DNA of 37,013 bases. Source: Nitrosomonadales bacterium (lineage in GTDB: Bacteria > Pseudomonadota > Gammaproteobacteria > Burkholderiales > Gallionellaceae). The stretch covers positions 1 to 37,013 of the forward strand of contig JACREB010000021.1 of NCBI GenBank assembly GCA_016218475.1, given 5' to 3'. The position numbers were made by a program, and so were the translations under genes. Shown here one piece after another: positions 1,853 to 33,423 of the stretch. Position 1 is the stretch's first letter. Each line of letters opens with the position of its first letter. Under the pieces are notes generated by a model. The model had not been told where the DNA came from. It saw only the letters and a program-made list of their open reading frames with translations, and did no database searches.

Positions 1853-3379
1853 ATGATCTTCGCCATCTCGCTCGACCTCGGCACCACGTCGGTCAAGGCT
1901 GGCTTGCTCGATCACGAAGGCGTGCTCGGACACATCGTCGCAAAACCTGCCCCGAATATCTCCGTTAGCGGCGGGCGCTACGAAAGCGACGCATTGGCCT
2001 ATGCGGCAACTGCCGAGCAGGTGCTTGGTGAATGCATCACACATACAGATGATTGCAAGACTCTCGGCGTGTGCAGCCAGCGCTCATCTTTCCTGCTCTG
2101 GGATCGTGCCACCGGCCAGCCGCTCACCCCGCTGATTTCATGGCAGGACAATCGCGGCGCGGCGAGCTGCGATGCGTTGCGCGCGCAGGAGCCTTCGATC
2201 CGCGATCTCACCGGCCTGCCGCTGATGCCGTATTATTTCGCACCGAAGCTGCGCGTTATGTTGCTGGAAAATCCCGGGTGGCAGGCAAGACTGGAGTGCG
2301 GCGAACTGCTGGCGGGTACGCTGGATACGTTCCTAATCTGGCGCTGGACTGGCGGCAAACATTTCGTGACCGATGCGTCGATGGCCGCGCGCACCCTGCT
2401 GATGGACATCCGCCAGCAGCGATGGTCGCCGCGACTGTGCGAGCTGTTCGGCATCCCGATAAACATACTGCCGGAAATCAAGCCCTCCGCAGGGCTGAAT
2501 ATAAGGCTGAGTAATGGCCTGATTCTGCAGGCCAGTGTCGGCGATCAGTCCGCCGCGCTGATCTCCAGCGTCAGCGAAGACCGCGCGGAAACCTTGGTCA
2601 ATCTTGGCACGGGCTGTTTTGTCGTGCGCTATCTACAGGATGGAAAATCTGCATTGTTGGGTATTCCAGAATACACGACAGTGTTGCCACAATTGGAAAA
2701 CCACCCCCATCCCAACCCTTCTCCCTCCGGGGGAGGGATTGAGGGAGGGGGTGAAAGTGAGGGAAATAAGCTGCCGACAATTATGGAAACACCAATAGAT
2801 GGTTACCTGCGTACGCTGGTGTATCAGGACAGCACACTGCGCACCCATTTCGCCATCGAGGGCACGCTCAACTCCATCGCTGCCGCACTCGCCCCTTATC
2901 CGGTGGGTGAATGCATGCTTGAAGACCTCGCGGCAAATGACATTTTTTGCCTCGCCGAACCCAGCGGCCTCGGCGCACCCTACTTCCGAAATGATATCGG
3001 CATCCGCTTTTCCCGTCCGGTCGAGCACATGTCACAACGCCAAATCGCCGCCCTGTTGCTGGAAGCTGTCATTTTCCGCGTGACACGGATATTGGAAGAT
3101 TTTCACCGCGCATCCGCCCTTGAGCGTGTTTACCTTTCGGGCGGGTTATCCGGGCTGGGCTGTTTGCAACAGGGCATCGCACGGTGCGTGCCGTTTGATG
3201 TTTACCGCCTGTCGCAGGCCGAAGCCAGCCTGCAAGGCGCTGCGCTGCTCGCGGCAGGAATGGCTCCGGCATTCCGCAGGGAGGTTGAAAAAATATCGAC
3301 AGTGTGCAGCACCCATGCGCCGCCGGAAAAATACCTGCTCTGGAAAAACTGGCTCGACGTTTTGCTGGAGCAACATTAA
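1853..3379 (+). CDS. FGGY-family carbohydrate kinase, glycerol kinase-like
   Basis: ATP-dependent sugar or polyol kinase of the ASKHA fold. The N-terminal phosphate-binding motif SLDLGTTSVKAG is at residues 5-16. SQRSSFLLWDRATG, SWQDNR, GLPLMPYYFAPKLR and GTLDTFLIWRWTGG follow, in the order and wording of glycerol kinases. The C-terminal FGGY domain includes YLSGGLSGLGCLQQ. Placement directly after glpD makes glycerol the likely substrate, but several residues differ from classical GlpK (DLGTT rather than DQGTT), so I leave the symbol blank. A repeat insertion (PHPNPSPSGGGIEGGGE, around residues 282-300) adds a glycine- and proline-rich loop in the middle. The stop is 9 bp from hrpA. Confidence 0.85.
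   Translation: MIFAISLDLGTTSVKAGLLDHEGVLGHIVAKPAPNISVSGGRYESDALAYAATAEQVLGECITHTDDCKTLGVCSQRSSFLLWDRATGQPLTPLISWQDNRGAASCDALRAQEPSIRDLTGLPLMPYYFAPKLRVMLLENPGWQARLECGELLAGTLDTFLIWRWTGGKHFVTDASMAARTLLMDIRQQRWSPRLCELFGIPINILPEIKPSAGLNIRLSNGLILQASVGDQSAALISSVSEDRAETLVNLGTGCFVVRYLQDGKSALLGIPEYTTVLPQLENHPHPNPSPSGGGIEGGGESEGNKLPTIMETPIDGYLRTLVYQDSTLRTHFAIEGTLNSIAAALAPYPVGECMLEDLAANDIFCLAEPSGLGAPYFRNDIGIRFSRPVEHMSQRQIAALLLEAVIFRVTRILEDFHRASALERVYLSGGLSGLGCLQQGIARCVPFDVYRLSQAEASLQGAALLAAGMAPAFRREVEKISTVCSTHAPPEKYLLWKNWLDVLLEQH
2695..2765 (+). repeat. PNPSPSGGG-type repeat inserted in-frame in the FGGY kinase
   Basis: A C-rich stretch followed by a G-rich stretch (CCCTTCTCCCTCC / GGGGGAGGGATTGAGGGAGG) forms a hairpin and encodes a Pro/Gly-rich peptide. 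It belongs to the same family as the insertions in hrpA and dnaE. It is recognised by composition, by its palindromic design, and because the peptide interrupts a conserved domain. Confidence 0.75.
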
Positions 3380-3388
3380 GAGAAAAAC

Positions 3389-6300
3389 ATGACGGTAAAA
3401 CCTCCTTTATCCGCCAGTGCCCTGCGCCGGAAAACACGCCTCGACTCTCTTGCGCCCATCGAATTCCCCGCCGATCTGCCGGTGGTAGACAAGCGCGAGG
3501 ATCTGGCGCGCGCCATCGGCGAAAACCAAGTGGTCATCGTTTGCGGCGAGACCGGCTCGGGCAAGACCACGCAGTTGCCGAAGATATGTTTGCTGCTGGG
3601 GCGCGGCATCCATGGCTGCATCGGTCATACCCAGCCGCGCCGCGTGGCGGCACGCTCGGTGGCATCGCGCATCGCGTTCGAACTGAAAACCGAGCTGGGC
3701 GGCGTGGTCGGCTACAAGGTGCGTTTCCACGACAAGGTGTCGCCCGACACCAGTATAAAATTAATGACCGACGGCATTCTGCTGGCGGAAATCCACAGCG
3801 ATCCGCTGCTGAAAAATTACGATACGCTGATCATCGACGAGGCGCACGAGCGCTCGCTCAACATCGACTTCCTGCTCGGCTATCTCAAACAGTTATTGCC
3901 GCGCCGCCCCGATCTCAAGCTGATCATCACCTCGGCCACGCTGGATGCGGAGCGCTTTGCCGCGCATTTCGGAGCAGTAAAGATCGAAGTTTCGGGGCGC
4001 AGTTACCCGATCGAGACGCGCTATCGCCCGCTGCAAATCAGCGACGAAGGTGAGGCGCAGGATGTGCCGCAGGCGGTGAGTTCCGCGCTGGGCGAGCTGG
4101 CTGCTGGCGGATTAAAAGGCGACGTGCTGGTGTTCCTGCCGGGCGAGCGCGAGATTCGCGATACGGCGGAAGCGTTGCGCAAGCACCACCCAAAAGGCAT
4201 CGAGGTGTTGCCGCTGTTCGCACGCCTGTCGGCGGCGGAGCAGGATCGGGTGTTCAAGACCGGAGGACAACGTCGTGTCGTGCTGGCAACCAATGTCGCG
4301 GAAACTTCGCTGACCGTGCCAAACATCGGCTATGTGATCGACTGCGGCCTGGCGCGGATGAACCGCTACAGCATCCGCCAGAAGGTCGAGCAGTTGCACA
4401 TCGAAAAAACTTCGCGCGCCGCCGCCAGCCAGCGCGCCGGGCGTTGCGGGCGCGTGATGAGCGGCGTGTGCATCCGCCTGTACGACAAGGCGGATTTTTT
4501 GCAGCGCGCCGAATTCACCGATCCGGAAATTTTCCGGGTGTCGCTGGCGACCGTGATTCTGCGCATGAGTGCGCTGGAACTGGGCGACATTGCCGAGTTT
4601 CCGTTCATCGAGCCGCCCAGCCCGCGCATGATCGCCGACGGATACCAACTATTGATGGAATTAGGGGCAATCCAGGATTTACCCTCACTTGCAGTGCGCG
4701 TTCCGGCTGGTACGCCGGAACCGCTCGATGTGCGCAGAGCATGCTCTGCGAATTCCCCATCTCGCCCCCCGCCCCTCTCCCCTCAAGGGGGAGGGTTAGG
4801 GGGCAAGATGCTTACCCCGCTCGGCCATGAGCTGGCCAAGTTGCCGCTCGACCCCAAGATCGCACGCCTGTTGCTGGCCGGAAGGCAGTATCAGTGCCTG
4901 ACCGAAATCCTGATTATCGCCAGCGCACTGTCGGTGCAAGACCCGCGCGAACGTCCGCTGGATCGGCAAGAAGCGGCGGATGCAGCACATAAGCATTTTG
5001 CCGACGAGCGTTCCGATTTTCTGGCGCACTTGAAAATATGGGCATGGTTCGAGCAGGCGGTAACACAAAAAAAATCCAACCGCCTGCTGGCGGAAGAATG
5101 CCGCAAGAATTTCCTGTCGCCGCTGCGCCTGCGCGAGTGGCGCGAGCTGCACCAGCAGTTGCACGCGCAGGTTGCGGAGATGGGGATGCGCGGCAACGAA
5201 CAACCCGCGACCTACGAGCAGATACATAAGGCACTGCTGTGCGGGCTGCTCGGCAACATCGGTATGAAGAGCGTGGAAGGCAACGAATATCTCGGCGCAC
5301 GCGGCATCAAATTTTTCATCGCGCCGAATTCGGTGCTGGCGAAAAAAGGCAGCAAGTGGGTGATGGCGGGCGAGCTGGTCGAGACCCACCGCCTGTATGC
5401 GCGCTGCGTGGCGCGCATCGAGCCGGAGTGGCTGGAAGAGGTCGGCGCGCATCTGATCAAGCGGCATTATTACGACCCGCACTGGGAGAAGAAGGCCGCG
5501 CAAGTCAGCGCCTTCGAGCGCAGCACGCTCTACGGGCTTGTCCTCAACCCGAAAAAACGTGTGCACTACGGGCCGATGAACCCTGCCGAATCGCGCGAGG
5601 TATTCATCCGCCAGGCGCTGGTCGGCGGCGAATTCTACACCCAGGCTGCGTTCTTCGCGCACAACCGGAAACTGATCGCCGACATTGAGGCGCTGGAACA
5701 CAAGGCGCGCCGTCCCGACGTGCTGGTGGACGACAAGCTGATCTTCGCCTTCTACGACAGCCGCATTCCGGCGGACATATACAACGGCGCTGCGTTCGAA
5801 CACTGGCGCAAGGATGTGGAACGCGCCGACGCAAAACTGCTCTACCTGAAGAAGGACGACCTGATGCGCCACGAGGCGGCGGGGATCACCACCGACCAGT
5901 TCCCGCCGCAGTTGCAGATCGACAATGTCAGCTTCGCGTTGGGCTACAACTTCTCGCCCGGCAAGAACGATGACGGCATCACGCTCACCGTGCCGCTCGC
6001 GCTCATCAACCAGGCGAGCGCGGCACGCGGCGAATGGCTGGTGCCGGGCATTCTGGCGGAGAAAGTGGTGCAACTGCTCAAAACGTTGCCGCAACGCTTG
6101 CGCCGTCATCTGGTTCCGGTGCCGGAATTCGCGGCGGCATTCTGCCGTGATGTTGCCCCCTCCAACGTACCGTTAGCGCAAGCTCTGACACGCTATATCC
6201 GCGAACAGAAACAGATCGACGTGCCGCCCGACGCATTCCGTCTGGAGCAGTTGCCGCAACACCTGCTGATGAATTTCCGCATCGTGGATGAGCATGGGCG

Positions 6301-7303
6301 GCAACTCGGCATGTCGCGCAATTTTGCGCAGTTGCACGGCGAGTGGGCTACCCCCTCCTCCCCCTCCCTAGCCCTCCCCCGGGGGGAGAGGGGACTGTTT
6401 GGTGGAACATTTGGTATAAGCCCCCCCGGGGGAGGGGTTGGGGAGGGGGAGCGTTACACCTCGTGGAGCTTCGGCGCCTTTACCGAGACAAGCGTAGAGA
6501 AACGCGCCGGGCAAGCAGTCACCGTATTCAACGCGTTGGTGGATGACGGCGACGCGGTGCTGCTGCGCGCCTTCGACACGCGCGATGCCGCGCGAGCAGC
6601 GCATCGTGGCGGGTTGCGCCGCCTGTTCATGCTGCTGCTGAAAGAACAGGTGAAATACCTGGAGAAAAACCTGCCGGATGCACAGCGGCTGGGAATGCTG
6701 TTTATGGCGCCCCATTCCCCGTTCAGCGGCACGCAGCAGGAGTTGCAGCAACAGATTCTCGCGACGACCTTCGAGCGCTGCTGCCTGAACGACCCGTTGC
6801 CTATCAACGGGGCTGAATTCACCGCGCGCGGCAAGGAGGCGAAGAACCGCCTGCTACTGATCGCGCAGGAAATCGCGCGACTGGCCGGCAATATTCTCGG
6901 CGAATATCAGGCGTTGCAGAAGAATCTGCCCCAGATCAAGGCGCATCCCCGAGCGGCGCAGGATGTGCGCACGCAACTGGAATGGCTGCTGCACAAACGC
7001 TTCATCGCCGAGACACCCTACGAGCGTTTGCAGCATGTACCACGCTATCTCAAGGCGATCGGCCTGCGCATTGAAAAACTGCGCAGCAACCCGGCGCGCG
7101 ACGCGCAGCGCATGGCGCAGATGCAGCCGCTGTTGCAGGCGTGGCAAAAGCTGCGCCATGCGCGACAGGGTAGACCCGGCCCACGCTTGGAAGAATTCGC
7201 CTGGCTGTTGCAGGAACTGCGCGTGTCGCTGTTTGCACAGGAACTGAAGACACCTGTGATCGTGTCGGTGAAGCGGTTGCAGAAGATGCTGGAGCTGATG
7301 TAA
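3389..7303 (+). CDS. hrpA: ATP-dependent RNA helicase HrpA (DEAH box)
   Basis: Large DEAH/RHA helicase; the E. coli HrpA family acts on RNA and has been linked to rescue of stalled ribosomes. Walker A GETGSGKTTQ is near residue 52, Walker B/DEAH IIDEAHERS near 149, motif III ITSATLD near 180, and motif VI QRAGRCGR near 347. Helicase-associated HA2, OB and the long HrpA-specific C-terminal region follow. The length of 1304 aa is close to the 1300 aa of E. coli HrpA even though two repeat-derived insertions are present, near residues 448-473 and 987-1022. It is the third gene of the glpD-kinase-hrpA run and starts 9 bp after the kinase stop. Several long antisense ORFs over it are codon-bias shadows. 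Confidence 0.95.
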   Translation: MTVKPPLSASALRRKTRLDSLAPIEFPADLPVVDKREDLARAIGENQVVIVCGETGSGKTTQLPKICLLLGRGIHGCIGHTQPRRVAARSVASRIAFELKTELGGVVGYKVRFHDKVSPDTSIKLMTDGILLAEIHSDPLLKNYDTLIIDEAHERSLNIDFLLGYLKQLLPRRPDLKLIITSATLDAERFAAHFGAVKIEVSGRSYPIETRYRPLQISDEGEAQDVPQAVSSALGELAAGGLKGDVLVFLPGEREIRDTAEALRKHHPKGIEVLPLFARLSAAEQDRVFKTGGQRRVVLATNVAETSLTVPNIGYVIDCGLARMNRYSIRQKVEQLHIEKTSRAAASQRAGRCGRVMSGVCIRLYDKADFLQRAEFTDPEIFRVSLATVILRMSALELGDIAEFPFIEPPSPRMIADGYQLLMELGAIQDLPSLAVRVPAGTPEPLDVRRACSANSPSRPPPLSPQGGGLGGKMLTPLGHELAKLPLDPKIARLLLAGRQYQCLTEILIIASALSVQDPRERPLDRQEAADAAHKHFADERSDFLAHLKIWAWFEQAVTQKKSNRLLAEECRKNFLSPLRLREWRELHQQLHAQVAEMGMRGNEQPATYEQIHKALLCGLLGNIGMKSVEGNEYLGARGIKFFIAPNSVLAKKGSKWVMAGELVETHRLYARCVARIEPEWLEEVGAHLIKRHYYDPHWEKKAAQVSAFERSTLYGLVLNPKKRVHYGPMNPAESREVFIRQALVGGEFYTQAAFFAHNRKLIADIEALEHKARRPDVLVDDKLIFAFYDSRIPADIYNGAAFEHWRKDVERADAKLLYLKKDDLMRHEAAGITTDQFPPQLQIDNVSFALGYNFSPGKNDDGITLTVPLALINQASAARGEWLVPGILAEKVVQLLKTLPQRLRRHLVPVPEFAAAFCRDVAPSNVPLAQALTRYIREQKQIDVPPDAFRLEQLPQHLLMNFRIVDEHGRQLGMSRNFAQLHGEWATPSSPSLALPRGERGLFGGTFGISPPGGGVGEGERYTSWSFGAFTETSVEKRAGQAVTVFNALVDDGDAVLLRAFDTRDAARAAHRGGLRRLFMLLLKEQVKYLEKNLPDAQRLGMLFMAPHSPFSGTQQELQQQILATTFERCCLNDPLPINGAEFTARGKEAKNRLLLIAQEIARLAGNILGEYQALQKNLPQIKAHPRAAQDVRTQLEWLLHKRFIAETPYERLQHVPRYLKAIGLRIEKLRSNPARDAQRMAQMQPLLQAWQKLRHARQGRPGPRLEEFAWLLQELRVSLFAQELKTPVIVSVKRLQKMLELM
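4745..4810 (+). repeat. Pro/Gly-rich repeat insertion 1 in hrpA
   Basis: CCCCGCCCCTCTCCCCTCAA is followed by GGGGGAGGGTTAGGGGGCAAG, giving a C-rich/G-rich hairpin. The encoded peptide PPPLSPQGGGLGGK interrupts the HA2 region just before LTPLGHELAKLPLDP, a stretch conserved in DEAH helicases. The frame is kept. Confidence 0.75.
6345..6455 (+). repeat. Pro/Gly-rich repeat insertion 2 in hrpA (double copy)
   Basis: Two C-rich/G-rich palindromes lie in tandem (CCCTCCCCCGGGGGGAG, then CCCCCCCGGGGGAGGGG). They encode LALPRGERG...ISPPGGGVGEGE and are bounded by native HrpA sequence (FAQLHGEW before, SWSFGAF after). The insertion adds about 35 residues without breaking the frame. Confidence 0.75.
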
Positions 7304-22268: not shown

Positions 22269-22412
22269 AGGGTATCTCTCAAAATTCAGAGTTCGCCCAA
22301 ATGCAAGGCGCGGAAAAAATTTCGTAGCGCTGCATATAATGGTATATGTTAGCAAGAAATTTTTTACGCAACGCAGCAGTTGGGATGAAATCTGGATTTT
22401 TAGAGATGCCCT
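22269..22412. repeat. MITE-like imperfect palindrome providing the prlC stop
   Basis: Left end AGGGTATCTCTCAAAATTCA and right end (inverse strand) AGGGCATCTCTAAAAATCCA match over most of about 60 bases. The arms continue through GCAAGGCGCGGAAAAAATT against GCGTTGCGTAAAAAATT to a centre near TATAATGGTATA. The element is about 144 bp. Its right end supplies the last prlC codons and stop (GGGCATCTCTAA = GHL*). Confidence 0.8.
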
Positions 22413-24586
22413 GAAGTTTCGAGTAGCCCATTATGCCGCAACAATGCGTCTATGCTTGGCTCGCGCCCGCGAAACGCGCTGAACGAGTCCATCGCGCCGC
22501 GGCTGCCGCCCACCGCCAGTATCTCGCTGCGGAAGCGCGCGCCGACATCGGGGTTGAGCACGCCGTTTTCCTCGAACAGGCTGTACGCGTCGGCGGACAG
22601 CACTTCCGCCCATTTGTAGCTGTAATAGCCCGCCGCATAGCCGCCGGAGAAGATATGCGAAAAGCTGTGCGGGAAGCGATGGAACGCGGGCGGGATCAGC
22701 ACCGCCACTTCGGCGCGCACTTCGTCGAGCAGTTGCAGAATGCTCTTGCCGCCACCCGCCTCGAAGTTGCTGTGCATCAGCATGTCGAACAGCGAAAATT
22801 CGATCTGGCGCAAGGTTTGCAAGCCGCTCTGGAAATTCTTCGCGGCAAGCATCTTGTCGAACAACGCGCGCGGCAACGCCTCGCCGCTGTCGACATGGCG
22901 CGTCATGCCGCGCAGCACATCCCATTCCCAGCAGAAGTTCTCCATGAACTGGCTGGGCAATTCAACCGCATCCCATTCCACGCCATTGATGCCGGACACG
23001 GCGAGGTCTTCCACTTCAGTCAGCAGGTGGTGCAGTCCGTGCCCGAATTCGTGGAACAGCGTGATTACCTCGTCATGCGTGAACACCGCGGGTTTGCCGC
23101 CGACCGGCGGGGAAAAATTGCAATTCAAATAGGCGACAGGCGTTTGTATAACAGAGGACAGAGGACAGGGGACAGAAGACAGAGGTGCAGTTGCGGCTGC
23201 GCCGCGTCTTTTGTTATAGGCGTGCCGCGTAGCGGCACACAAAACATCCGTCTTCTGTCCTCTGTCTTCTGTCATCTGAACACGTCGCCGCGTGATCACA
23301 TCGTCCATCCATGCCCCGCCGCGCTTGCTGTTGCGCGCATACAGGTCGAGATAAAATTGGCCGGCCAGTTGCCCCTGCGCATCGCGGATGTCGAGGAAGC
23401 GCACGTCGTCATGCCACACGGGTGCGCGGGATAATTTGATCTGCAAGCCATACAGCGTCTCGACCAGCCTGAACATGCCGGGCAGCACCGCATCTTCGGG
23501 GAAATACTGCTTCACTTCCTGCTCGGAAAAGGCGTAGCGTTTCTCGCGCAGTTTCTCGCTGGCGTAGCCCACGTCCCACGATTGCAGGCCTGTCCTGAGC
23601 TCAGCCGAAGGGTCGTCTATGCCCAATTCGGCGCGCGCAAATCCGCGCAGTTCGGCCAGGTCTTTTTCGGCGAAAGGCCGCGCGCGCTGCGCCAGTTCGC
23701 GCATGAACTCGGCCACCTGTTGCGGCGACTCCGCCATCTTGCTCGCCAGCGACAGCTCGCCGAAGTTGGCGAAGCCCAGCAGGCTCGCTTCCTCGCCGCG
23801 CAGCCGGACGATTTCATCCATCAGCGCGGTGTTGTCCCACTCCGGCTTGCCGAACTCGCTGGCGCGCGTGCCATAGGCGCGATACATCGTTTCGCGCAAC
23901 GCGCGGTTGTCGGCGAATTGCATCACCGGCATGTAGGACGGTGCTTTCAGCGTGAACAACCAGCCGGATTTATTGGCCGCTTGGGCGGCCTCATGCGCCG
24001 CCTGCAACACATCTTCCGGCAAACCGCTCAGTTCGTTCTTGCTCTCGATCACCAGCGTGTAGTCGTTGGTCGCGTCGAGCAGGTTGTCGGAAAAGCGCGA
24101 CGACAGTTCTGCCAAGCGCTCCTGAATTTCCAAGTAGCGCTGCTTCTTGTCTTCCGGCAGCTCCGCGCCGCCGAGACGGAAATCGCGCAGCTCGTTCTCG
24201 ATGATCTTCTTGCGCGCCGCGCTCAAACCGGCGAATTCAGGGCCGTTGCGCAACGCCTTGAACTTTTCGAACAGCGCGAGATTCTGCCCGAGTTCGGCGT
24301 AATACTGGGTGATCTTCGGCAGCGTGGCGTTATACACCTCGCGCAACTCGGGCGAATTCATCACCGCGTTCAAATGCCCGACCGGCCCCCACGCGCGCGA
24401 CAGCCGCTCGTTGGCATTTTCCATCGGCACGATGAAATCCTGCCAAGTCGGTGGTGCATTGTCGGCTAACAGCCGCGCGATCAGCGCGCGGTTTTCCGCC
24501 AGCAACTGTTCAATCGCCGGTGCGACATGTTCGGGCTTGATCTCCGCAAAGCGCGGCAGACCGGTGAAGTCGAGTAATGGGTTCAT
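22400..24586 (-). CDS. prlC: Oligopeptidase A (M3 metallopeptidase)
   Basis: The 728-aa cytosolic zinc peptidase degrades oligopeptides, including cleaved signal peptides. The zinc site HEFGHGLHHLL is near residue 512 and the third ligand lies in SGINGVEWDAVELPSQFMENFCWE. Conserved GGAWMDD and QTPVAYLNCNFSPPVGGKPA flank the first insertion. It exceeds E. coli PrlC (680 aa) by 48 residues, matching a repeat insertion of about 45 residues (MTEDRGQKTDVL...LSSVPCPLSSV) near residues 435-480 plus a few residues (DDPSAELRTG) near 325. The C-terminus is set by the adjoining MITE. Confidence 0.95.
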   Translation of the reverse strand: MNPLLDFTGLPRFAEIKPEHVAPAIEQLLAENRALIARLLADNAPPTWQDFIVPMENANERLSRAWGPVGHLNAVMNSPELREVYNATLPKITQYYAELGQNLALFEKFKALRNGPEFAGLSAARKKIIENELRDFRLGGAELPEDKKQRYLEIQERLAELSSRFSDNLLDATNDYTLVIESKNELSGLPEDVLQAAHEAAQAANKSGWLFTLKAPSYMPVMQFADNRALRETMYRAYGTRASEFGKPEWDNTALMDEIVRLRGEEASLLGFANFGELSLASKMAESPQQVAEFMRELAQRARPFAEKDLAELRGFARAELGIDDPSAELRTGLQSWDVGYASEKLREKRYAFSEQEVKQYFPEDAVLPGMFRLVETLYGLQIKLSRAPVWHDDVRFLDIRDAQGQLAGQFYLDLYARNSKRGGAWMDDVITRRRVQMTEDRGQKTDVLCAATRHAYNKRRGAAATAPLSSVPCPLSSVIQTPVAYLNCNFSPPVGGKPAVFTHDEVITLFHEFGHGLHHLLTEVEDLAVSGINGVEWDAVELPSQFMENFCWEWDVLRGMTRHVDSGEALPRALFDKMLAAKNFQSGLQTLRQIEFSLFDMLMHSNFEAGGGKSILQLLDEVRAEVAVLIPPAFHRFPHSFSHIFSGGYAAGYYSYKWAEVLSADAYSLFEENGVLNPDVGARFRSEILAVGGSRGAMDSFSAFRGREPSIDALLRHNGLLETSGHL
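23152..23278 (-). repeat. TEDRGQK/LSSV-type repeat inserted in-frame in prlC
   Basis: Arms ACAGAGGACAGAGGACAGGG and CTTCTGTCCTCTGTCTTCTG pair to form a hairpin whose loop encodes CAATRHAYNKRRGAAATA. The same arm sequence with a different loop occurs at the ruvX 5' end (34797-34883). The reading frame stays open through the whole insertion. Confidence 0.8.
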
Positions 24587-24636
24587 GGATTAAGCTGAAA
24601 ATAAATACTGTGGTGGGGAATCTGACAGTCGCATTT

Positions 24637-24773
24637 TACTATAGGGCGCTTCTAGAAATGGCATTTCGACAGGCTTGAGGCGAACGGCCACCATTGTTAA
24701 TCAACAAATTATCCGTTCGTGCTGAGCCTGTCGAAGCATGGACGGATAATTTTAGCAGCGTACTATAGGGCGC
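24637..24773. repeat. 13-bp direct repeats bracketing a SPFDRLRANG-type palindrome
   Basis: TACTATAGGGCGC occurs at 24637-24649 and again at 24761-24773. Between them, TTTCGACAGGCTTGAGGCGA and TGAGCCTGTCGAAGCATGG form inverted copies of the CTTCGACAGGCTCAG family. The layout looks like an inserted element with flanking duplications. The gap 24587-24794 holds no gene. Confidence 0.7.
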
Positions 24774-24794
24774 AGGTGCAGTTCCCCGCGTCCG

Positions 24795-25493
24795 TTATTT
24801 CTGCTTCCTCGTGCGCGGTACACCAATCCGTGAACACCAAGCCGATATTGGGCATTCATCGCACAGTGGCGTGGTCGGAGTACAAATCTCGCGCCCGAGA
24901 GAAATCATATTCACGTGTAATGAATGTCGAAGTTCGGGAGGGATTTTGGCTTGCAGGCGATCCATGTCTCGCGGCGCGCAGTGCTTGTCTTTCTGTGTCG
25001 GCCTGACCCAGCCGAGACGCCTGGCGATTCGCCAGCAATGCGTATCCACGGGGAAAACTTGTCTGCCCAGCGAATACATCAAAACACATCGCGCAACTTT
25101 CTTTCCAACTCCCGGCAGTGACAACAAGAAAGCTTCAGCATCCTTATCGCTCATTTTGCGCAATGGCTTCAGAGTCGGTTCGCCAAACTTTTCCACGATG
25201 ACATCGAAAAGGTCGCGGATCGCCTTTGCTTTCTGGTTCGACAGACCGCCGCTGACGATAGGCCGCGCAATATATTCGGCGGGCGCTTCGGCAATTCGCA
25301 AGTGGGTGGGAAAAGTTTCTTTCAGTGAGCGGAAGGTGCTGCGGTAGCTCGCTTCGCCAGTCTTGGTGCTACAAATGATAAACAGCAGTTCGTCCAGCGG
25401 GTTTTTGAGGTTGTAGTGATTGAAGTCGTGGTAGCGGGTTTGCAGGGCTGCCGCGACGTCAAAAACAGACAAAGGATATTTTCGCGTTGGCAT
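24795..25493 (-). CDS. HhH-GPD DNA glycosylase, endonuclease III-like
   Basis: The 232-aa base-excision enzyme has helix-hairpin-helix LPGVGKKVARCVLM (residues 126-139), with Lys132 at the endonuclease III nucleophile position and Asp150 (VDTH) as the catalytic Asp. The iron-sulfur loop is Cys204-x6-Cys211-x2-Cys214-x5-Cys220. It diverges from ordinary Nth in the N-terminal half (FNHYNLKNPLDELLFIICSTKT), so it is not simply nth. It lies at the edge of an island with two cytosine-5 methyltransferases, and thymine or 5mC-deamination repair is a reasonable guess. Confidence 0.8.
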   Translation of the reverse strand: MPTRKYPLSVFDVAAALQTRYHDFNHYNLKNPLDELLFIICSTKTGEASYRSTFRSLKETFPTHLRIAEAPAEYIARPIVSGGLSNQKAKAIRDLFDVIVEKFGEPTLKPLRKMSDKDAEAFLLSLPGVGKKVARCVLMYSLGRQVFPVDTHCWRIARRLGWVRPTQKDKHCAPRDMDRLQAKIPPELRHSLHVNMISLGREICTPTTPLCDECPISAWCSRIGVPRTRKQK

Positions 25494-25741
25494 GTTTGGA
25501 AATCAGTGGTGAGCCGTCGCGGTTTTACTCTTTCCCTTTGGCCAATTTTTTCTTGCTCGGGGGCAGATAACTCTCTGCGGAAACCACCTTCTTGCCCGTC
25601 TTGCCTTCCAGCTCCAGCCGCGCTTTCTTGGCAATGCCACCGCCAGTTATCGCCGCATCCTCGTTCTCGTTCATGCCGGTTGCTTTCATGCTCTCGGCAA
25701 TCTGGCGCGTGGACAATTCTGCCAGCGCGGTAAGCTTTGCA

Positions 25742-25789
25742 TAGCCATTCCACTAGGCTGCCAAAAAACGGCAACCAAGTGGCTGGTTA
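25742..25789. repeat. 48-bp covarying palindrome, copy in the BRO gene
   Basis: It begins TAGCCATTCCACTAGGCTGC and ends ACCAAGTGGCTGGTTA, the same length and outer sequence as 8785-8832 in dnaE. The inner stem here is GGCTGCC with GGCAACC. At the tenth base the dnaE copy has G (pairing with C) and this copy has C (pairing with G). Confidence 0.75.
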
Positions 25790-26226
25790 AAATCAGCTCG
25801 GCTTCGCTCATGTGGTCGCGCAGGTTTTGCGACTTCAAACCCTTCATCGCCTTGTGCGCTTTTACGTCCACATCGGCCCACTCCTGATGGATGATGTTGG
25901 TGAGGATCGCGTATTCCTCGCCCTCCTTGATGTCGTGTTCTCTCCAATAGTCCGTCAGCTTGTTGCGTGTCTCCTGACCGGTCATGCGCTGCTGTATCCA
26001 CTTCTCGCTACGCCCGTGCTTCTGCCATGTCTCGCGGGCGCGATCCAGCGAACGGGCGGGATCAGCCATCTCCTGCATCCGCTCATAACCCACCTTCGCC
26101 AGCCACAGCTTGATCGGCTCGGCTTTGGGGCTAGGCACGGACTGCACCAGACGCAGTAGCGTTTCGGCGGTGGCAACATCGGTGAGGTAATTTTTGCCGT
26201 CTGCGGCAGGCAGTTTCAGTCGGTTA

Positions 26227-26244
26227 CATTTTGTAACCGACTCA
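26227..26244. other. Intragenic palindrome in the BRO gene (approximate position)
   Basis: The sequence AGTCGGTTACA-TTT-TGTAACCGACT, with 11-bp arms, lies around 26217-26241 inside the BRO coding region where SVTKCNR is encoded. It shares GTTAC/GTAAC half-sites with the palindrome upstream of the same gene. It may simply reflect coding constraint. Confidence 0.4.
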
Positions 26245-26468
26245 CTGCCTTCCTTGCCCAGCCTGTTTTTCAGTACCTTCCAGTAGTTTCGGGCGGACTG
26301 ATAATCCGGTTGCTGGGTGAGTACCTGCACAATGTCCACCACCGAAAACCACCACGTTTCCGTGGCCTCGTCATACACGCGGCGGATTTCATGTTCCTCG
26401 AAGATGGCTGGCTGGAGTTGCATGGTCAGGGCTCCTTGTTCATGGATGGCAGGCGAACTATTTCAACT

Positions 26469-26485
26469 GGTAACAAATTGTTACC
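26469..26485. promoter_or_regulatory. 17-bp perfect palindrome upstream of the BRO gene
   Basis: GGTAACAA-A-TTGTTACC lies 46 bp before the BRO-domain start, in the gap between it and the endonuclease gene. The symmetry and position fit an operator for a dimeric regulator. Which protein binds is unknown. Confidence 0.55.
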
Positions 26486-26539
26486 GATTGAACACTTGAG
26501 ACACTGTCCGTAAAAATAATTCGTGCATGGCACATTTGC

Positions 26540-27844
26540 TCAAAACTCCACCGGCCCGAACTTTTGATAAAGTTCCGCCAGATGCCGCACCGACATCCTG
26601 AACTGGCTACGCGCTTTCACGGTCGATTTTTCGGTGCTGGCATTCATCACCTTGGAACCCGGGTCAAGAATCACAAGACCGGCACACAATGCCGCCAGAT
26701 ATCGGTTGAAGTCCGTGCCTTCCCCCAGCAATGCCGGGCTGAGATAACGATAGGTTGGCGCTGCCACCTTCTCGCCTTTGTAACGAATATATGCCGCATG
26801 CGCGTGTTTCTTGTTCCATTTAATCAGCAGATGGGCAAATGACCAAGCGGCTTCGCAGCGCCCTTTATCCGTGAGCAACTCCACCGCGCCGCCCACATCC
26901 TCGATGATTTTTTGGGACGGGTTAAAACCGCGCACGACCAACGTGAGGCCGGTCTTCTCATTGCGGCAATCGGCGCGGTGTGTGCCGGTGAAATAGAGCG
27001 TGTCCTCGCCCGAGGGTTTACCGTATTTGCGGACGAAGGCTTTAACACCATCCTCGCCATACATCCCACCATCTGGCTCCGGCGTAATTAGGGTTATCCG
27101 ATCCTTGCTGTAGGCCTTTATTTCCCAGCCCATAAAATCAGGTTCAGAAATGCTGTTACGAATAATGCCGAGCAGTGCCTCCAATGTATAACCACCCCCG
27201 TTGCTTGCCTTATATGGAACAATGATTCCATCTTTCTTCAAGCTTATCGAAGGTTGCCAGCCTCTCTTCCTGATTTCTGACAATCTTTCCAAAAGCATGA
27301 TCCTTGAATCTCGGCCTTGCAGCGGCAAATTGAAAAACACGCTTTCTTGAGAAAACGCGCTTTCAGCCTGTCGCTGCCGAAACTCTTGTGCAATGCTGCT
27401 TTCCGCAGGTGCAAGGTAAGCCAATGTTTCACCGTTGCGGGTAATTCCAAAAAATAATATTCGTCCATCCGGGCCATTGTTGAAGCGTCGTTGGGACGCG
27501 GGTATTGGCCTCAACAACTCATTGGGTGCTCGTTTGCATCCACGAAGAAAACCGGACAGCCGAACTTCTGGGTATTGCGGATAGAGAATAAGTTGTGCGC
27601 CAGCAGCCTGCTCAGTCTTGTCGGCATCAATCCACGCGAAATTCAGTTTTGCTTTGTAGGTGCTGTCCTTACCGTTCGAGGTTGCTTCGACGTTCTCGAA
27701 CGGAAACATTTGCACTACATCAAAGTTCCCACCGAGATATATCTGCTGCTTGCTGTTATCGTTTTCTGCGAGTGGTTTGCAAAAGGCACGAACAGCGCCC
27801 AACTCAGAGAATCGCCGCAACAAACCAGCAAGGTCAGCAAACAT
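26540..27844 (-). CDS. MvaI/BcnI-family type II restriction endonuclease
   Basis: The 434-aa protein's C-terminal half matches the MvaI/BcnI family: GGGYTLEALLGIIRNSISEPDFMGWEIKAY holds the nuclease motif Asp236-x4-Glu241-x-Lys243 with Glu222 upstream, and FVRKYG, NSYFTGTHR-like and ELLTDKGRC segments follow. MvaI itself is about 250 aa, so the first about 200 residues are an extra N-terminal region of unknown role. Family enzymes are monomeric nickers or cutters at CCWGG or CCSGG sites. With the Dcm-like methyltransferase two genes upstream, CCWGG is the likely target. The ORF is intact. Confidence 0.8.
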   Translation of the reverse strand: MFADLAGLLRRFSELGAVRAFCKPLAENDNSKQQIYLGGNFDVVQMFPFENVEATSNGKDSTYKAKLNFAWIDADKTEQAAGAQLILYPQYPEVRLSGFLRGCKRAPNELLRPIPASQRRFNNGPDGRILFFGITRNGETLAYLAPAESSIAQEFRQRQAESAFSQESVFFNLPLQGRDSRIMLLERLSEIRKRGWQPSISLKKDGIIVPYKASNGGGYTLEALLGIIRNSISEPDFMGWEIKAYSKDRITLITPEPDGGMYGEDGVKAFVRKYGKPSGEDTLYFTGTHRADCRNEKTGLTLVVRGFNPSQKIIEDVGGAVELLTDKGRCEAAWSFAHLLIKWNKKHAHAAYIRYKGEKVAAPTYRYLSPALLGEGTDFNRYLAALCAGLVILDPGSKVMNASTEKSTVKARSQFRMSVRHLAELYQKFGPVEF

Positions 27845-27885
27845 ATTTCTCCTTTAGCGCAATGCCTAAATTTCAATGGCAAACA

Positions 27886-28167
27886 TCAAGCATCTAGCTG
27901 TTGGCCGCAAGCTGTCATGAAAATTGGATATGCAGCTTCAATCACCTTTTCATGTCCAATATTTTCCTCAAGCTCATTAAGCAAGAAGCGCAATTCTATG
28001 ACTTCGACATCTGAGAATGTTCGTTTGCTATCCGAGTTGTTGATAATGTCAGCAGGATCATCCTCTGGATGGAAAAGCAGCCTGCTGCATTGCATCTCCG
28101 AGAACCACAACAAAGCGCCATCAAAAGTTGTGTCGTGAAGTTTTGGAATACGTGATTGGGTGTGCAT
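27886..28167 (-). CDS. Small conserved-looking protein of unknown function in the R-M operon
   Basis: The 93-aa protein lies 10 bp after the methyltransferase stop and 41 bp before the endonuclease start, so it is co-transcribed. It is acidic and mostly helical by eye, with FHPEDDPADIINNSD and VEVIELRFLLNELEENIGHEKVIEAAYP. There is no HTH, membrane segment or nuclease motif. I do not recognise the family. The position suggests an accessory or control role, which is a guess. Confidence 0.65.
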   Translation of the reverse strand: MHTQSRIPKLHDTTFDGALLWFSEMQCSRLLFHPEDDPADIINNSDSKRTFSDVEVIELRFLLNELEENIGHEKVIEAAYPIFMTACGQQLDA

Positions 28168-28177
28168 GATTTCTCCT

Positions 28178-29452
28178 TTAAGCAGTTGCGTAACGAAGGG
28201 GTAATTCAGTTTCCAGGATACCAGGTTCCAGCATCGGTTGCATCAACTTTGCAACATGAGTCATTACATCAACAACAACAGAATTTCCGAATTGTTTATA
28301 AGCCCGTGTATCTGACACCGGAATCCTGAACGTATCTGGGTAGCCCATCAGCCGCGCACATTCTCTGGGTGTGAGTCGGCGCGGGTTTTTTCTTGTGCCT
28401 TGATACACGAGAATTTCCGAGCCATCCTTGTAGTAGCGCGCCGATAAGGTGCGCGTCACGTCTCCGGGTTTGACCAAGCCGAAGCCGAAGCCATTGCCCT
28501 TTGCTTTGTGCTTCGCGGCGTAGTTCTGCAAGTAGAGCCAAAGGTTGTCGGTGAGAGTGTATTTGTCCGGCACTTTCTTTTTCTTGTGGTCGAAGTATTT
28601 TCCCTCATCCCAAGACAAAACAGGTTCACTGCCGTCGGTGCGATGCAAAATGTCCTTGAGCGTGGCTGCGCCCTTTTTGGGCAGGGGCAGCGCGTCGAAA
28701 TCGAATGCGACCGGTTCGCGGAAGCCTGCGATGAGGATGCGTTCGCGGTGTTGCGGGACGAAGTGCGCGCCGTCTATGACGCGGTAGTGAATGTGGTAGC
28801 CGAGGTCGAGGGTCAATGTGCGGCGAATGACATCGAAGGTTCGCCCTTTGTCATGCGAGACGAGGTTTTTGACGTTCTCCAGCAGGAAGGCGCGCGGGCG
28901 TTTGGCCTCGATGATGCGCGCCACATCGAAGAACAGCGTGCCTTGTGTTTCGCAAGCGAAGCCATGCGCCTTGCCTAGCGCATTTTTCTTCGATACTCCG
29001 GCTATCGAAAACGGCTGGCAGGGAAAACCCGCCAGCAGCACGTCGTGATCGGGAATATCGGCGGCTTGTACTTGAGTGATGTCTCCGGCGATGGGATGCC
29101 GGTCGCGGAAATTTTCGGCGTAGGTTTTTTGCGCGTAGCTGTCCCATTCGCTGGTGTACACGCAACGCCCGCCGATTTGTTCGAATGCCTTGCGCAGGCC
29201 GCCGATGCCCGCGAACAGGTCGATGAAATCAAACGCGCCTGCGGGGCTTTCTTCACCAAACGGCAGCAGTTGTTGCAATGCGTGAGCCAGATAGGCGGGA
29301 GGGGGCGTTTGTTTCGTTTCCCACCTTCTGACGGTGCGGACATCAATGTCTAAATATTTTGCAAGAGCCGCTTGGGTATGGTGTTTGCGGGCTTCGTCCA
29401 GATAAGAAAGCACAGTGTCTTGATCGCTGACTAAGGTGAGAGTGGCATTCAT
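28178..29452 (-). CDS. DNA (cytosine-5) methyltransferase, Dcm/EcoRII-like
   Basis: The 424-aa enzyme transfers a methyl group from SAM to C5 of cytosine. Motif [17 protein letters not shown] (75-90), motif [10 protein letters not shown] with Cys145, motif VI LLENVKN, motif [14 protein letters not shown] and motif X FGNSVVV are all present. The wording around them ([65 protein letters not shown]) is very close to E. coli Dcm, pointing to CCWGG. The N-terminal 70 residues contain an XRE-like helix-turn-helix ([20 protein letters not shown]), as in methyltransferases that repress their own gene. It is followed by the small protein and the MvaI-like endonuclease. Confidence 0.9.
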
Positions 29453-29476
29453 GGCTATTCATTGACCGGAAATTAT

Positions 29477-29521
29477 CTGGGAATTTTTGCGGACAATATG
29501 TCATTTATTATTCCCAGTCAA
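29477..29521 (-). promoter_or_regulatory. Promoter and operator for the Dcm-like methyltransferase operon
   Basis: On the minus strand, TTGACT (29521-29516) and TATTGT (29498-29493) are 17 bp apart. An inverted repeat CTGGGAAT / ATTCCCAG (29510-29517 and 29477-29484) overlaps the -35 and sits just past the -10. The promoter lies at the 3' end of the upstream methyltransferase gene. The methyltransferase's own HTH domain is a plausible repressor of this site. Confidence 0.55.
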
Positions 29522-30766
29522 GTTGCATACACGGATGTGCGGCGTATGCGCTACGCGGTGGATTTTGGCTTGACCATTTGGCGGTTTACAGCCTTGCCCG
29601 AATACCTGTCTCGTATCAACAGAACCACTCCGCACCCCCAACCTGCCCGCCAGCTCACGGCCTATCGTTTCCCCCAGCAACACCGGAACTGCATTCCCTA
29701 TCTGGCGCATCGCCTCGCCCCATGCGCCTTTGATGACGAAGCTATCGGGAAATGTCTGTATCCGTTTTGCCTCGCACACCGTGAAATAGCGGACGCTGCC
29801 ATCCGGGTAGCGGATCATGTTTTCTCCGCCGGGAACGCCGTGGCCTCCCGCCTTGATGGTTTTTGCGGGCCAGTCAATATCGCTGCCGGTGTGGCCGGGA
29901 TAGGTGCGTGCGCCGTCGTGGAAGATATGGTCGTCAATGCTGTGTCGGGTTTCCGGATCGGGGATGCCTTGCAGTGCATCCCTGACCGTGCGCCAGGGCT
30001 GTTGCTCCGGCTCGAACATGCCGTACTTGTCTTTCAAGCGAACAATTTTTTCTTGCAAAAGCTCAGTCATCGGCATGCGTTCTGCTTTCGGCACATGGTG
30101 GCGCTTCCAATATTCGCCTGTTACATACATTTCCCAAAGCAATCGGTCTTCGGAATGCGTCTCTGCTGGGAACGACCAAGGCGCACCAATGTTGGCTCTC
30201 GTGCCTACGATAACTACCCGTTCCCGCGTTTGCGGGACACCGTAATTGGCCGCGTTGATTAGCTTGAACGAGACGTCGTATTTTGTTCCGGCGTAGGGAA
30301 GCTGGCCGATGCTGCGAAGGTCGCGCAAATGATCTTTCCAGTCTGTGCCGTGCTTGGCAATAAATCCGGGGTAGGTGAGCCGCAGGATGATGTACTCGAA
30401 ATAATCCGCAAAGGATGCCCTGAGCAAGCCTTTGACGTTTTCGAATACAAAAGCTTTGGGAGTGAGTTGTTCAATCGCCCGGATTGCATAGGGGAACATG
30501 TCGCGGCTATCTTGATCCGCTTTATGTTTGCCGCCCAACGAGAAGGGTTGGCAAGGCGGGCCACCTGCCACGACGTCAACATCGCTCAGGGCATCAAGGT
30601 CAAAATCTTTGATGTCTCCAAAGTAAACTTTTTTCGCATCAAAGTTTTCGTAGAGCGACGCGCAGGCGTGCTTGTTAAATTCCACAAATGCGGAATGCTG
30701 GAAACCGGCAAGTTCCAGCCCTTTAGCTAGTCCGCCCGCTCCGGAAAATATCTCCAGTGACTTCAT
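29501..30766 (-). CDS. DNA (cytosine-5) methyltransferase, Eco29kI-like partner
   Basis: The 421-aa enzyme has motif I SLEIFSGAGGLAKGLELAGF, motif IV GGPPCQPFS (Cys72), motif VI FENVKG, motif VIII NYGVPQTRERVVIVG and a long variable region. It ends RQIGNAVPVLLGE. ATG 30766 is chosen because it overlaps the upstream Eco29kI-like endonuclease stop (ATGA, 30763-30766). That is the R-then-M arrangement known for Eco29kI; the ORF track's 39 extra residues lie inside the R gene. The predicted target by association is CCGCGG. It looks intact although its endonuclease is broken. Confidence 0.85.
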   Translation of the reverse strand: MKSLEIFSGAGGLAKGLELAGFQHSAFVEFNKHACASLYENFDAKKVYFGDIKDFDLDALSDVDVVAGGPPCQPFSLGGKHKADQDSRDMFPYAIRAIEQLTPKAFVFENVKGLLRASFADYFEYIILRLTYPGFIAKHGTDWKDHLRDLRSIGQLPYAGTKYDVSFKLINAANYGVPQTRERVVIVGTRANIGAPWSFPAETHSEDRLLWEMYVTGEYWKRHHVPKAERMPMTELLQEKIVRLKDKYGMFEPEQQPWRTVRDALQGIPDPETRHSIDDHIFHDGARTYPGHTGSDIDWPAKTIKAGGHGVPGGENMIRYPDGSVRYFTVCEAKRIQTFPDSFVIKGAWGEAMRQIGNAVPVLLGETIGRELAGRLGVRSGSVDTRQVFGQGCKPPNGQAKIHRVAHTPHIRVCNLTGNNK

Positions 30767-31403
30767 GGCTTGCGCCCGATATTTTTGAAGTGATTTTTGA
30801 CTCTGGAAAGGATGGCGCTTTCTTCTGCACGAGCGCCATTGCATTTTTCTGCCCAAGCTCGACCCGGATGAATCACATCCCAATCTGATTTGGCTTGTTC
30901 GTATCTGCCGCTGCCGGGATCGTGGTTGCCGAAGCCATCCACGGCAGTAGCGGCATGTTCAATTTGATTAGCGCGGCTTCGATAGTGCTGATCATGTCTG
31001 AACTGGCATCCTCGAAAATAACAAAACGACAACTGAAGTCCTTGATCTCCAGCCCTTGAGCAGCGCCGATATTTCGACTGTGTTCCCGCAGGCGGCTAAA
31101 CAGTTCTTTGGATTGATCGAGCTGATTGTCGGAGATCCTCGCCTGTCGCCAACCCTTTGGTACAACCTTGCCGACATATATCGGGCAACTGTAAGACAGG
31201 CGATTCAGATCCGCATATTTTTTGTAGACTGGATTTTTGCCTGTGTAATAGATGGCGTAAACTCCAGTGCCAAGGAAAGACTCTGGCGGGGGCAGCGTGT
31301 GTACGGGAGTGCCGTTAAAGAACCTGATAGCGTCTTTGACGAGCTCGGCAAAAGCGTCGTTTTTGTATACGTGCTCACTTCTGTCGAAAGCTTTTGATTT
31401 CAT
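30763..31403 (-). pseudogene. Eco29kI-family GIY-YIG restriction endonuclease, frameshifted
   Basis: Frame 1 (31403 downward) gives the GIY-YIG core: GTGVYAIYYTG with Tyr49, CPIYVGK with Tyr76, SRLREHSR with Arg104 and His108, IEAALI with Glu142. As I recall, these are the Eco29kI catalytic positions. After NMPLLPW (residue 155) the frame turns to nonsense (MASATTIPAAADT). The true C-terminus, VDGFGNHDPGSGRYEQAKSDWDVIHPGRAW, is read in another frame, ending at 30763. The whole is 641 nt, one short of a multiple of three, and about the 214-aa family length. The break falls where catalytic Asn154 is expected. A sequencing error is possible. Confidence 0.8.
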
Positions 31404-31443
31404 ATTTTAAAGCAAAATGGCCAAGAAAAAGTTGGGGCGTGAA

Positions 31444-31809
31444 TCACTCGCGCGCCGGGTCAATCACACTCACCACGCGCGCGACGATTTCGCCTGTTGT
31501 CGCCTCGTCCAGCGTTTCGACGTATTCCGCCGAACCCGCGCGGGTTCTGGCTTCCAGGTCAAACGTGCGCACCTGGTTGCAAACGGCGACACCGTTGGTA
31601 TCGTGCCCGCTCACCGCAACTGTCAGTCCCATCTCGCGCATGGCCGCGCCGCCGCTGGTGATCGGAACCAGCATGGCGACGCCGAGCGCGTTGATTTCTT
31701 TCGGGGTGATAACGACGAAGCGATGCCGGTCTTTCATTTCGCGTCCCGCAACCGGATTGGGATTCACCCAGTAGACATCGCCCTGCTGTGGGACGCGGCG
31801 GCGGATCAT
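31444..31809 (-). CDS. MazF/ChpB-like (PemK family) endoribonuclease toxin
   Basis: The 121-aa protein begins PQQGDVYWVNPNPVAGREMKDRHRFVVITPKEIN and has VPITSGG, CNQVRTFDL and VETLDEAT in the order found in ChpB and PemK toxins. Family members cleave mRNA at short motifs. The ORF track start (32139) reads through the antitoxin in the wrong frame; ATG 31809 overlaps the antitoxin stop by 4 bp. The toxin end is 40 bp upstream of the Eco29kI-like endonuclease gene, the border of the defence island. Confidence 0.85.
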   Translation of the reverse strand: MIRRRVPQQGDVYWVNPNPVAGREMKDRHRFVVITPKEINALGVAMLVPITSGGAAMREMGLTVAVSGHDTNGVAVCNQVRTFDLEARTRAGSAEYVETLDEATTGEIVARVVSVIDPARE

Positions 31810-32072
31810 GCGATCTCGCGACCTACCGGTTCGCCTTCCAGCGCCCAGGCCGTTTCGGCATTGAGCTTGGCAATTTTTGCGGGGGTGACGTCCTGCAGTA
31901 GCTCGTGGAGGGAATAGCGGCGTTTGTTGGCCGCAGGACGCGCCGTCAGAACCCCCTCGGACACGTTCAACTCCAGCTTGCTGCCCACTTCGATGTGGAG
32001 CATTTGCATCATATTTGCCGGAATGGTGACGACGGCAGCACCGCCTTGTTTGCGCACATTTACGGTTGTCAT
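31806..32072 (-). CDS. MazE/ChpS-like antitoxin (AbrB fold)
   Basis: The 88-aa protein has an N-terminal swapped-hairpin DNA-binding domain (VNVRKQGGAAVVTIPANMMQMLHIEVGSKLELNVSEG). Its C-terminal tail contains RRYSLHELLQ, typical of ChpS/PemI antitoxins, and neutralises the toxin. CAGGAGG lies 5 bp before ATG 32072. The first gene of the pair, it probably represses its own promoter. Confidence 0.87.
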   Translation of the reverse strand: MTTVNVRKQGGAAVVTIPANMMQMLHIEVGSKLELNVSEGVLTARPAANKRRYSLHELLQDVTPAKIAKLNAETAWALEGEPVGREIA

Positions 32073-32097
32073 GGCATCCTCCTGTTTGTGGTTGCAC

Positions 32098-32126
32098 TTT
32101 GTAGCACTTTTGGATGCACGGTGCAA
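32098..32126 (-). promoter_or_regulatory. Promoter of the ChpS/ChpB-like pair
   Basis: On the minus strand, TTGCAC (32126-32121) and TACAAA (32103-32098) are separated by 17 bp. A repeated AAGTGC flanks the -10 (AAAAGTGCTACAAAGTGC), a possible antitoxin site. The promoter lies between the pyrC' stop and the antitoxin start. Confidence 0.55.
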
Positions 32127-32148
32127 GCTCCAATGCCAAACGCTCCCG

Positions 32149-33423
32149 TCAGCCCTGATAAACAATCTGCCCATCGAGCAGCGTATAACGCACCCGGCCC
32201 TGCATCTCGTAGCCGTTGAATGGTGTGTTTTTTCCCTGGCTCTTCAGCGCGGAAGGTTCGACTTTCCAGCTTGTCTTCGGGTCGAACATACAGATGTCCG
32301 CATGTGCGCCAACCGACAAGTGGCCTATCTTCTGCCCCAGCAATTGCGCGGGATTGATGGTCACGCGGGATAGAGCATCCAGCAGCGGCACCTTGTCCTG
32401 TTCCGCCCATTTCAGCACCAGCGGCAGCAGAAGCTCCAGGCCAGTTGCGCCCGCTTCGGCTTCTGCGAACGGCAACTGTTTGGCATCGTCATCCACCGGG
32501 GAATGATTGGAGCAGACCGCGTCAATCGTGCCATCCAACAGCCCGGCGCGCAACGCTTCCTTGTCGCGCAGGCTGCGCAGCGGCGGAACCAGATGGCAAT
32601 TGGAATCGAAAAACCCGATGTCCATTTCGGTCAGGTGCACATGGTTCATCGACACATCGCAGGTCACCGCCAGCCCATCACGCTTGGCGGTGCGCACCAT
32701 TTCCACGCCCGCCGCGCTGGAGAGGCGGCAGATATGCAGGATCACGCCGGTCTCTCGCGCCAGTTGCAGCATGGTCGAAAGCGCGATGGTCTCGGCGCAT
32801 ACCGGGATGACGGGCAGGCCGCAACGAGTCGCCACTTCGCCGTCGTGCGCCACGCCGTCCTTGGCGAGAAAGCTGTCCTGCGGACGCAGCCATACGCGGT
32901 AGCCGAAGGTCGCCGCATATTGCATGGCGCGCATCAACACCCTTGTGTCGGTCAGCGGCGCATCGGCTTGGCTGAAGGCCTTGCAGCCTGCGTCCGTCAG
33001 CTCGATCATCTCGGTGAGTTCCGCGCCTTTCAGGCCGTAAGTCAAGGCGCCGACCGGGAACACGCGCGCCTGATTCAGCGAGCGGGCGCGGTGCTTGAGC
33101 ATCTCCACCAGACCCGGCTCGTCCAGCGGAGGGTCGGTATCGGGCAGGCAGGACAGCGAGGTGACGCCGCCCGCCACCGCCGCGGTCATCTCGGATTCCA
33201 GCGTGGCCTTGTATTCGTAACCCGGCTCGCGCAAACGCGCGGCGACATCCACCAGTCCCGGCATCACGACCAGCCCGCCGGCATCGATTACCTGCTCCGC
33301 GACGAAACCTTGCGGCGCTGTGCCGATGGCGACAATGCGCCGCTCGGCGATGAACACGTCCTGCTGCGCGTCGATGTTGTTTTTCGGGTCGATCAGGCGA
33401 CCGTTTTTGATGTGGACGTTCAT
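32149..33423 (-). CDS. pyrC': Dihydroorotase-like PyrC' (predicted inactive, ATCase partner)
   Basis: The 424-aa amidohydrolase-fold protein is of the PyrC/PyrX type. The metal motif normally read DxHxHLREPG is here [10 protein letters not shown], so both first-shell His residues are missing. The later site reads [11 protein letters not shown] rather than the active enzyme's CSDHAPH. This matches the inactive pDHO of Pseudomonas, which serves as structural partner of ATCase. An active dihydroorotase must be encoded elsewhere. Start 33423 overlaps the pyrB stop by 4 bp. The 637-aa ORF in the track is this gene plus a pyrB shadow, not a fusion. Confidence 0.88.

Follow-up and report, generated by a model that had tools for sequence, protein, structure and literature searches.

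Introduction

The Eco29kI restriction-modification system, carried by plasmid pECO29 and directed against CCGCGG, is the described system with which the locus presented here can be compared residue by residue. In its endonuclease, the substitutions Y49A, H108F and E142A abolish cleavage, and R104A and N154L leave about 2% and about 10% of the activity, respectively; N154L also weakens DNA binding, and the ability to bind DNA survives in some of the active-site mutants (PMC1952068). A promoter lying just ahead of M.Eco29kI has been mentioned as well (PMC3039593). Solitary (orphan) methyltransferases, which are methylases without a cognate active endonuclease, are commoner than solitary endonucleases (Ershova et al. 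2012, PMC3488263), and solitary genes have been reported to derive only rarely from the degradation of complete systems (Oliveira et al. 2014, PMC4176335).

Here we analyse a 37,013-nt stretch of a genome from the Gallionellaceae, a family of iron oxidisers, hereafter the window, which contains an Eco29kI-type operon of endonuclease (R) and methyltransferase (M). We conclude with considerable confidence that a recent 7-nt deletion has struck this operon, that its endonuclease is most likely inactive and that its methylase, which can still be made, is probably a nascent solitary enzyme.

An Eco29kI-type endonuclease gene broken by a 7-nt deletion

The R gene (Table 1) encodes an Eco29kI-family endonuclease (PF09517, GIY-YIG superfamily), about 64% identical to Eco29kI across its readable part and numbered identically, active site included. 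As in the plasmid system, R precedes M and the stop of the former overlaps the start of the latter (ATGA), an arrangement also found in the relatives. Unlike Eco29kI, the window system is chromosomal, lying in a slot between pyrC and prlC, and its R is frameshifted at W153-N154: the gene reads as Eco29kI through NMPL, after which the frame is lost and a premature stop ends the product at 30873, so that an uninterrupted frame of about 215 aa (215 aa in intact relatives) is reduced to 176 aa. The Pfam profile RE_Eco29kI, of 164 positions, matches in two pieces, at profile positions 2-108 (E = 7.3e-39) and 111-163 (E = 6.2e-23), both exceeding the cut-off and with exactly two positions missing between them; with phmmer against the PDB, the pieces match the Eco29kIR chains 3mx1, 3mx4 and 3nic at residues 24-174 and 176-230. 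Five of the six residues of the catalytic set (Y49, Y76, R104, H108 and E142) are present, and N154 is deleted. The initial annotation had placed these five residues at their Eco29kI positions, which the numbering and alignment bear out, and had located the shift after NMPL, at the expected Trp-Asn (Asn154), on which the two-piece matches and the DNA alignment agree. Judged from its sequence, R is a pseudogene of the Eco29kI-type family and not a working member.

Table 1. Features of the window discussed in the text.
Feature	Position	Strand	Remarks
prlC (oligopeptidase A-like), presumed	22400..24586	-	other border of the slot
MvaI/BcnI-family endonuclease	26540..27844	-	presumed partner of second methylase; full-length Pfam match
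93-aa ORF	27886..28167	-	no family assigned; between second methylase and presumed endonuclease
Second C5 methyltransferase, Dcm-like	28178..29452	-	N-terminal HTH; ORF complete
Cognate C5-cytosine methyltransferase M, 421 aa	29501..30766	-	PCQ and ENV motifs present
-1 indel in last codons of M	29586..29606	-	usual family stop (29586-29588) out of frame; 28-aa extension
Endonuclease gene R, Eco29kI family	31403-30763	-
3' remainder of R, out of frame	30763..30948	-	from TAVDGFGNHDPG to NIGRKP; stop overlaps methylase start (ATGA)
Truncated R ORF, 176 aa	30873..31403	-	Eco29kI residues 1-152, then 24 out-of-frame residues
Junction of 7-nt deletion	30949..30950	-	Trp153-Asn154 codons and one base lost; placement ambiguous by 1 nt (shared T)
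MazF-like toxin	31444-31809	-	upstream of R
MazE-like antitoxin	31806-32072	-	upstream of R
pyrC (dihydroorotase)	32149..33423	-	slot border

Aligned with its closest relative (G005, loci L002/L007; same genus, 88% DNA identity), R shows one clean 7-nt gap and no other indel, the window reading CCGC-------TACTGCC against CCTCTTTGGAATACTGCC and, over a longer span, CCGC-------TACTGCCGTGG against CCTCTTTGGAATACTGCCGTGG. A 7-nt loss comprising the W-N codons plus one base had been proposed beforehand and is precisely what this comparison yields; alignment to Eco29kI-family proteins also falls into two pieces from which exactly W153-N154 is missing. The site reads CCNCTNTGGAAYAC in eleven further close relatives, and W-N is found in every examined relative whose R alignment covers it. 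Neither a homopolymer nor a short tandem repeat occurs at the deletion site. The main lesion is the frameshift, which replaces the last ~60 residues (the last third), and not the loss of Asn alone; it is the decisive damage because N154L by itself keeps residual activity in Eco29kI. That the deletion falls on a catalytic codon is a weak coincidence, by our own estimate very roughly 1 in 10, counting about 6 catalytic codons in 215 and one 7-nt deletion.

Since residues 1-152 are conserved and some active-site mutants of Eco29kI still bind DNA (PMC1952068), a truncated or reversible (phase-variable or frameshifted) product might be thought to keep a function, for instance in binding DNA or regulating the operon. 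This is very improbable, however: the protein has lost its final ~60 residues, which belong to the Pfam domain, N154L weakens DNA binding in Eco29kI (PMC1952068), ribosomal frameshifting is unable to restore deleted codons, and the site has no simple repeat. Programmed frameshifting or phase variation was rejected on this last ground and because the W-N codons are physically gone. Nor is the system at all likely to be kept active by another intact endonuclease of the Eco29kI type encoded at a different place in the genome, an idea to which we attach almost no probability; the assembly is only 86% complete, but protein and PF09517 searches return R as its sole matching locus, and more than one copy is found in no relative of a 61-genome sample.

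The methyltransferase gene

M carries a DNA_methylase domain (PF00145, E = 1.4e-58) and is 84-92% identical across residues 1-387 to its close 393-aa relatives. The description of the methyltransferase as untouched stands as far as its catalytic motifs are concerned and fails at its end, where a further -1 indel, in the final codons, has given it a 28-aa tail and a length of 421 aa, against 393 codons in all close relatives. The frameshifted terminal codons lie in a poorly conserved tail, and for this reason the activity of M is probably kept. With R now ending at 30873, translational coupling through the ATGA overlap may be weaker and the expression of M thereby lower.

By homology, the window system would be specific for CCGCGG. 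This sequence occurs at 357 sites in the assembly against 925 for a reversed control, which is within the range of the relatives; its avoidance as a record of past restriction was rejected, the counts not being distinctive. As the genome shows no distinctive scarcity of CCGCGG, past activity of the system is without independent support.

Age and reality of the deletion

Computed pairwise between R copies, the mean dN/dS of the window gene is 0.083, and intact copies span 0.057-0.094; its unique substitutions are only four and mild (E65D, A80V, L120I, I204V). Outside the deletion, R thus appears to be otherwise under purifying selection, and since it is conserved there like its intact relatives, the break is recent. 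We regard the gene as a pseudogene of recent date, belonging to a known family and otherwise ordinary.

Such freshness suits an error as well as a recent event, the remainder of R being intact-looking and constrained. The source assembly is a fragmented draft (221 contigs, 86% complete) in which the deletion may be false or reflect a minority strain, and a second indel lies close by, in M. We nevertheless consider it unlikely that an assembly or sequencing artefact, or the collapse of mixed strains, conceals a population with an intact endonuclease. A clean 7-nt loss is not a usual error for short or long reads, and Eco29kI-type R genes break repeatedly elsewhere, an isolate genome included (see below). 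With no repeat at the site of the 7-nt gap, and with the window's long housekeeping ORFs open, we think it more likely that the deletion is real than that the assembly is wrong.

Relatives and recurrent damage to R

Within the Gallionellaceae, orthologous R-M pairs are found in G005 (L002/L007) and in Ca. Ferrigenium altingense (G020; L003/L012), with 82-88% DNA identity for R and 89-92% for M. Unlike the window, both have an intact R with W-N and an M of the usual 393 aa, and the G020 pair occupies the same chromosomal slot as that of the window. A long frame in G020 suggestive of an R-M fusion was rejected, R and M being in different frames.

A methylase-based scan, limited to a single genome of each species, yielded 48 loci, 30 of which were comparable, that is, had R upstream and enough sequence. 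R was essentially intact at 24 of these 30 and broken or suspect at the other six, with M open in all six, although the frequency with which M is lost first lies beyond the reach of a sample anchored on M. A nonsense stop lies inside the conserved WDVIHPGR in L022, and the C-terminus of R is lost in L029. In the isolate Thiothrix eikelboomii ATCC 49788 (L027, around 4869-5001), the first 40 R codons are joined in frame to the whole of M and the rest is gone. The 5' part of R is replaced in L013 and L014, both near contig starts, and in a Chamaesiphon assembly (L023), at a contig start, residues 106-108 have changed from REH to EED, including H108D, beside an open methylase.

One reverse case was encountered. 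The congeneric locus L055 (G016:C20, 8633-9280, minus strand) has an open R frame in which R104H and 12 unique substitutions occur, and its adjoining M is cut to 30 codons. This locus plausibly represents a later stage of decay than the window, and its combination of open R and truncated M fits an R that died first. Its contig may be a contaminant, since G016 has two pyrC and two prlC genes; a reading of G016 as a genome with a solitary endonuclease was rejected on the same count, and only the locus itself is used here.

Separately, two Neisseria gonorrhoeae records (NZ_CP119142.1 and NZ_CP119140.1) contain an Eco29kI-type endonuclease region, about 68% identical, in which no gene is listed. 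Both are of chromosome size (2.17 Mb) though filed as plasmids.

The pyrC-prlC insertion slot

The interval between pyrC and the gene that we take to be prlC (window 22400-33423) is a polymorphic insertion slot in the genus: the two genes are 46-143 bp apart, the slot being empty, in eleven same-genus genomes, and 5.6-8.3 kb apart in the window and five others (G008, G016:C20, G017, G020 and G026). Among the other cargo of the slot are additional cytosine methylases and a gene for an endonuclease III-like glycosylase. Beside the Eco29kI pair, the window holds an MvaI/BcnI-type system that, from its reading frames, is apparently intact; as its ORFs are complete, the cell may still restrict other sites. 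What appear by eye to be the same Dcm-like methylase and MvaI/BcnI-type endonuclease are present in L071 (G008, 3243-6593, minus strand), together with a Vsr-like ORF (by eye) and without the Eco29kI pair.

The endonuclease III-like HhH-GPD gene of the window (24795-25493, minus strand) recurs at the end of methylase-bearing islands (L009, L010, L013, L057, L071 and L072) and is missing from the empty slot L074; it is possibly a repair partner for deaminated 5-methylcytosine. The prlC gene itself has an in-frame insert of ~40 residues (23162-23278, minus strand), where nearly all relatives fail to align. Matches to the insert are scattered over about 20 places of the same genome, which suggests a small mobile repeat within a housekeeping gene.

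Discussion

The evidence assembled here is best explained by a type II restriction-modification operon, R then M with an ATGA overlap, that lies in the pyrC-prlC slot and has recently suffered a 7-nt deletion, with the Trp-Asn codons lost and the rest of R put out of frame. The cell would most likely no longer make an active endonuclease, M could still be made and would probably still methylate CCGCGG, and with R dead M would become a nascent solitary enzyme. In this order of events restriction would be lost before modification, which would keep the cells safe, and both genes would be free to decay, the C-terminal tail of M having already drifted. The safe path of decay suggested at the outset is upheld by the broken R beside a kept M and by the same direction of damage at other loci. 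Only a broken R was found in the genome, in an assembly 86% complete and for a specificity taken from homology; the window M would resemble solitary methyltransferases in being a methylase without a cognate active endonuclease, and differs in that the remnant of the endonuclease is here nearly whole.

The operon illustrates cleanly, and at a recent stage, the order in which such systems are expected to decay, restriction before modification; its genus also holds intact and more decayed orthologues, of which two occupy the same chromosomal slot. Because of these orthologues, the disputed in-place origin of solitary methylases is testable in one lineage. It is conceivable, though doubtful, that the pyrC-prlC slot of the Gallionellaceae preserves a time series, from the intact pair (G020) through an R freshly dead beside a kept M (window) to the loss of the catalytic Arg with M nearly gone (L055). 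If so, a solitary methylase would have formed naturally in place and then been lost, against the published conclusion that solitary genes seldom arise in this way, and the kept methylase would possibly protect its host against incoming CCGCGG systems.
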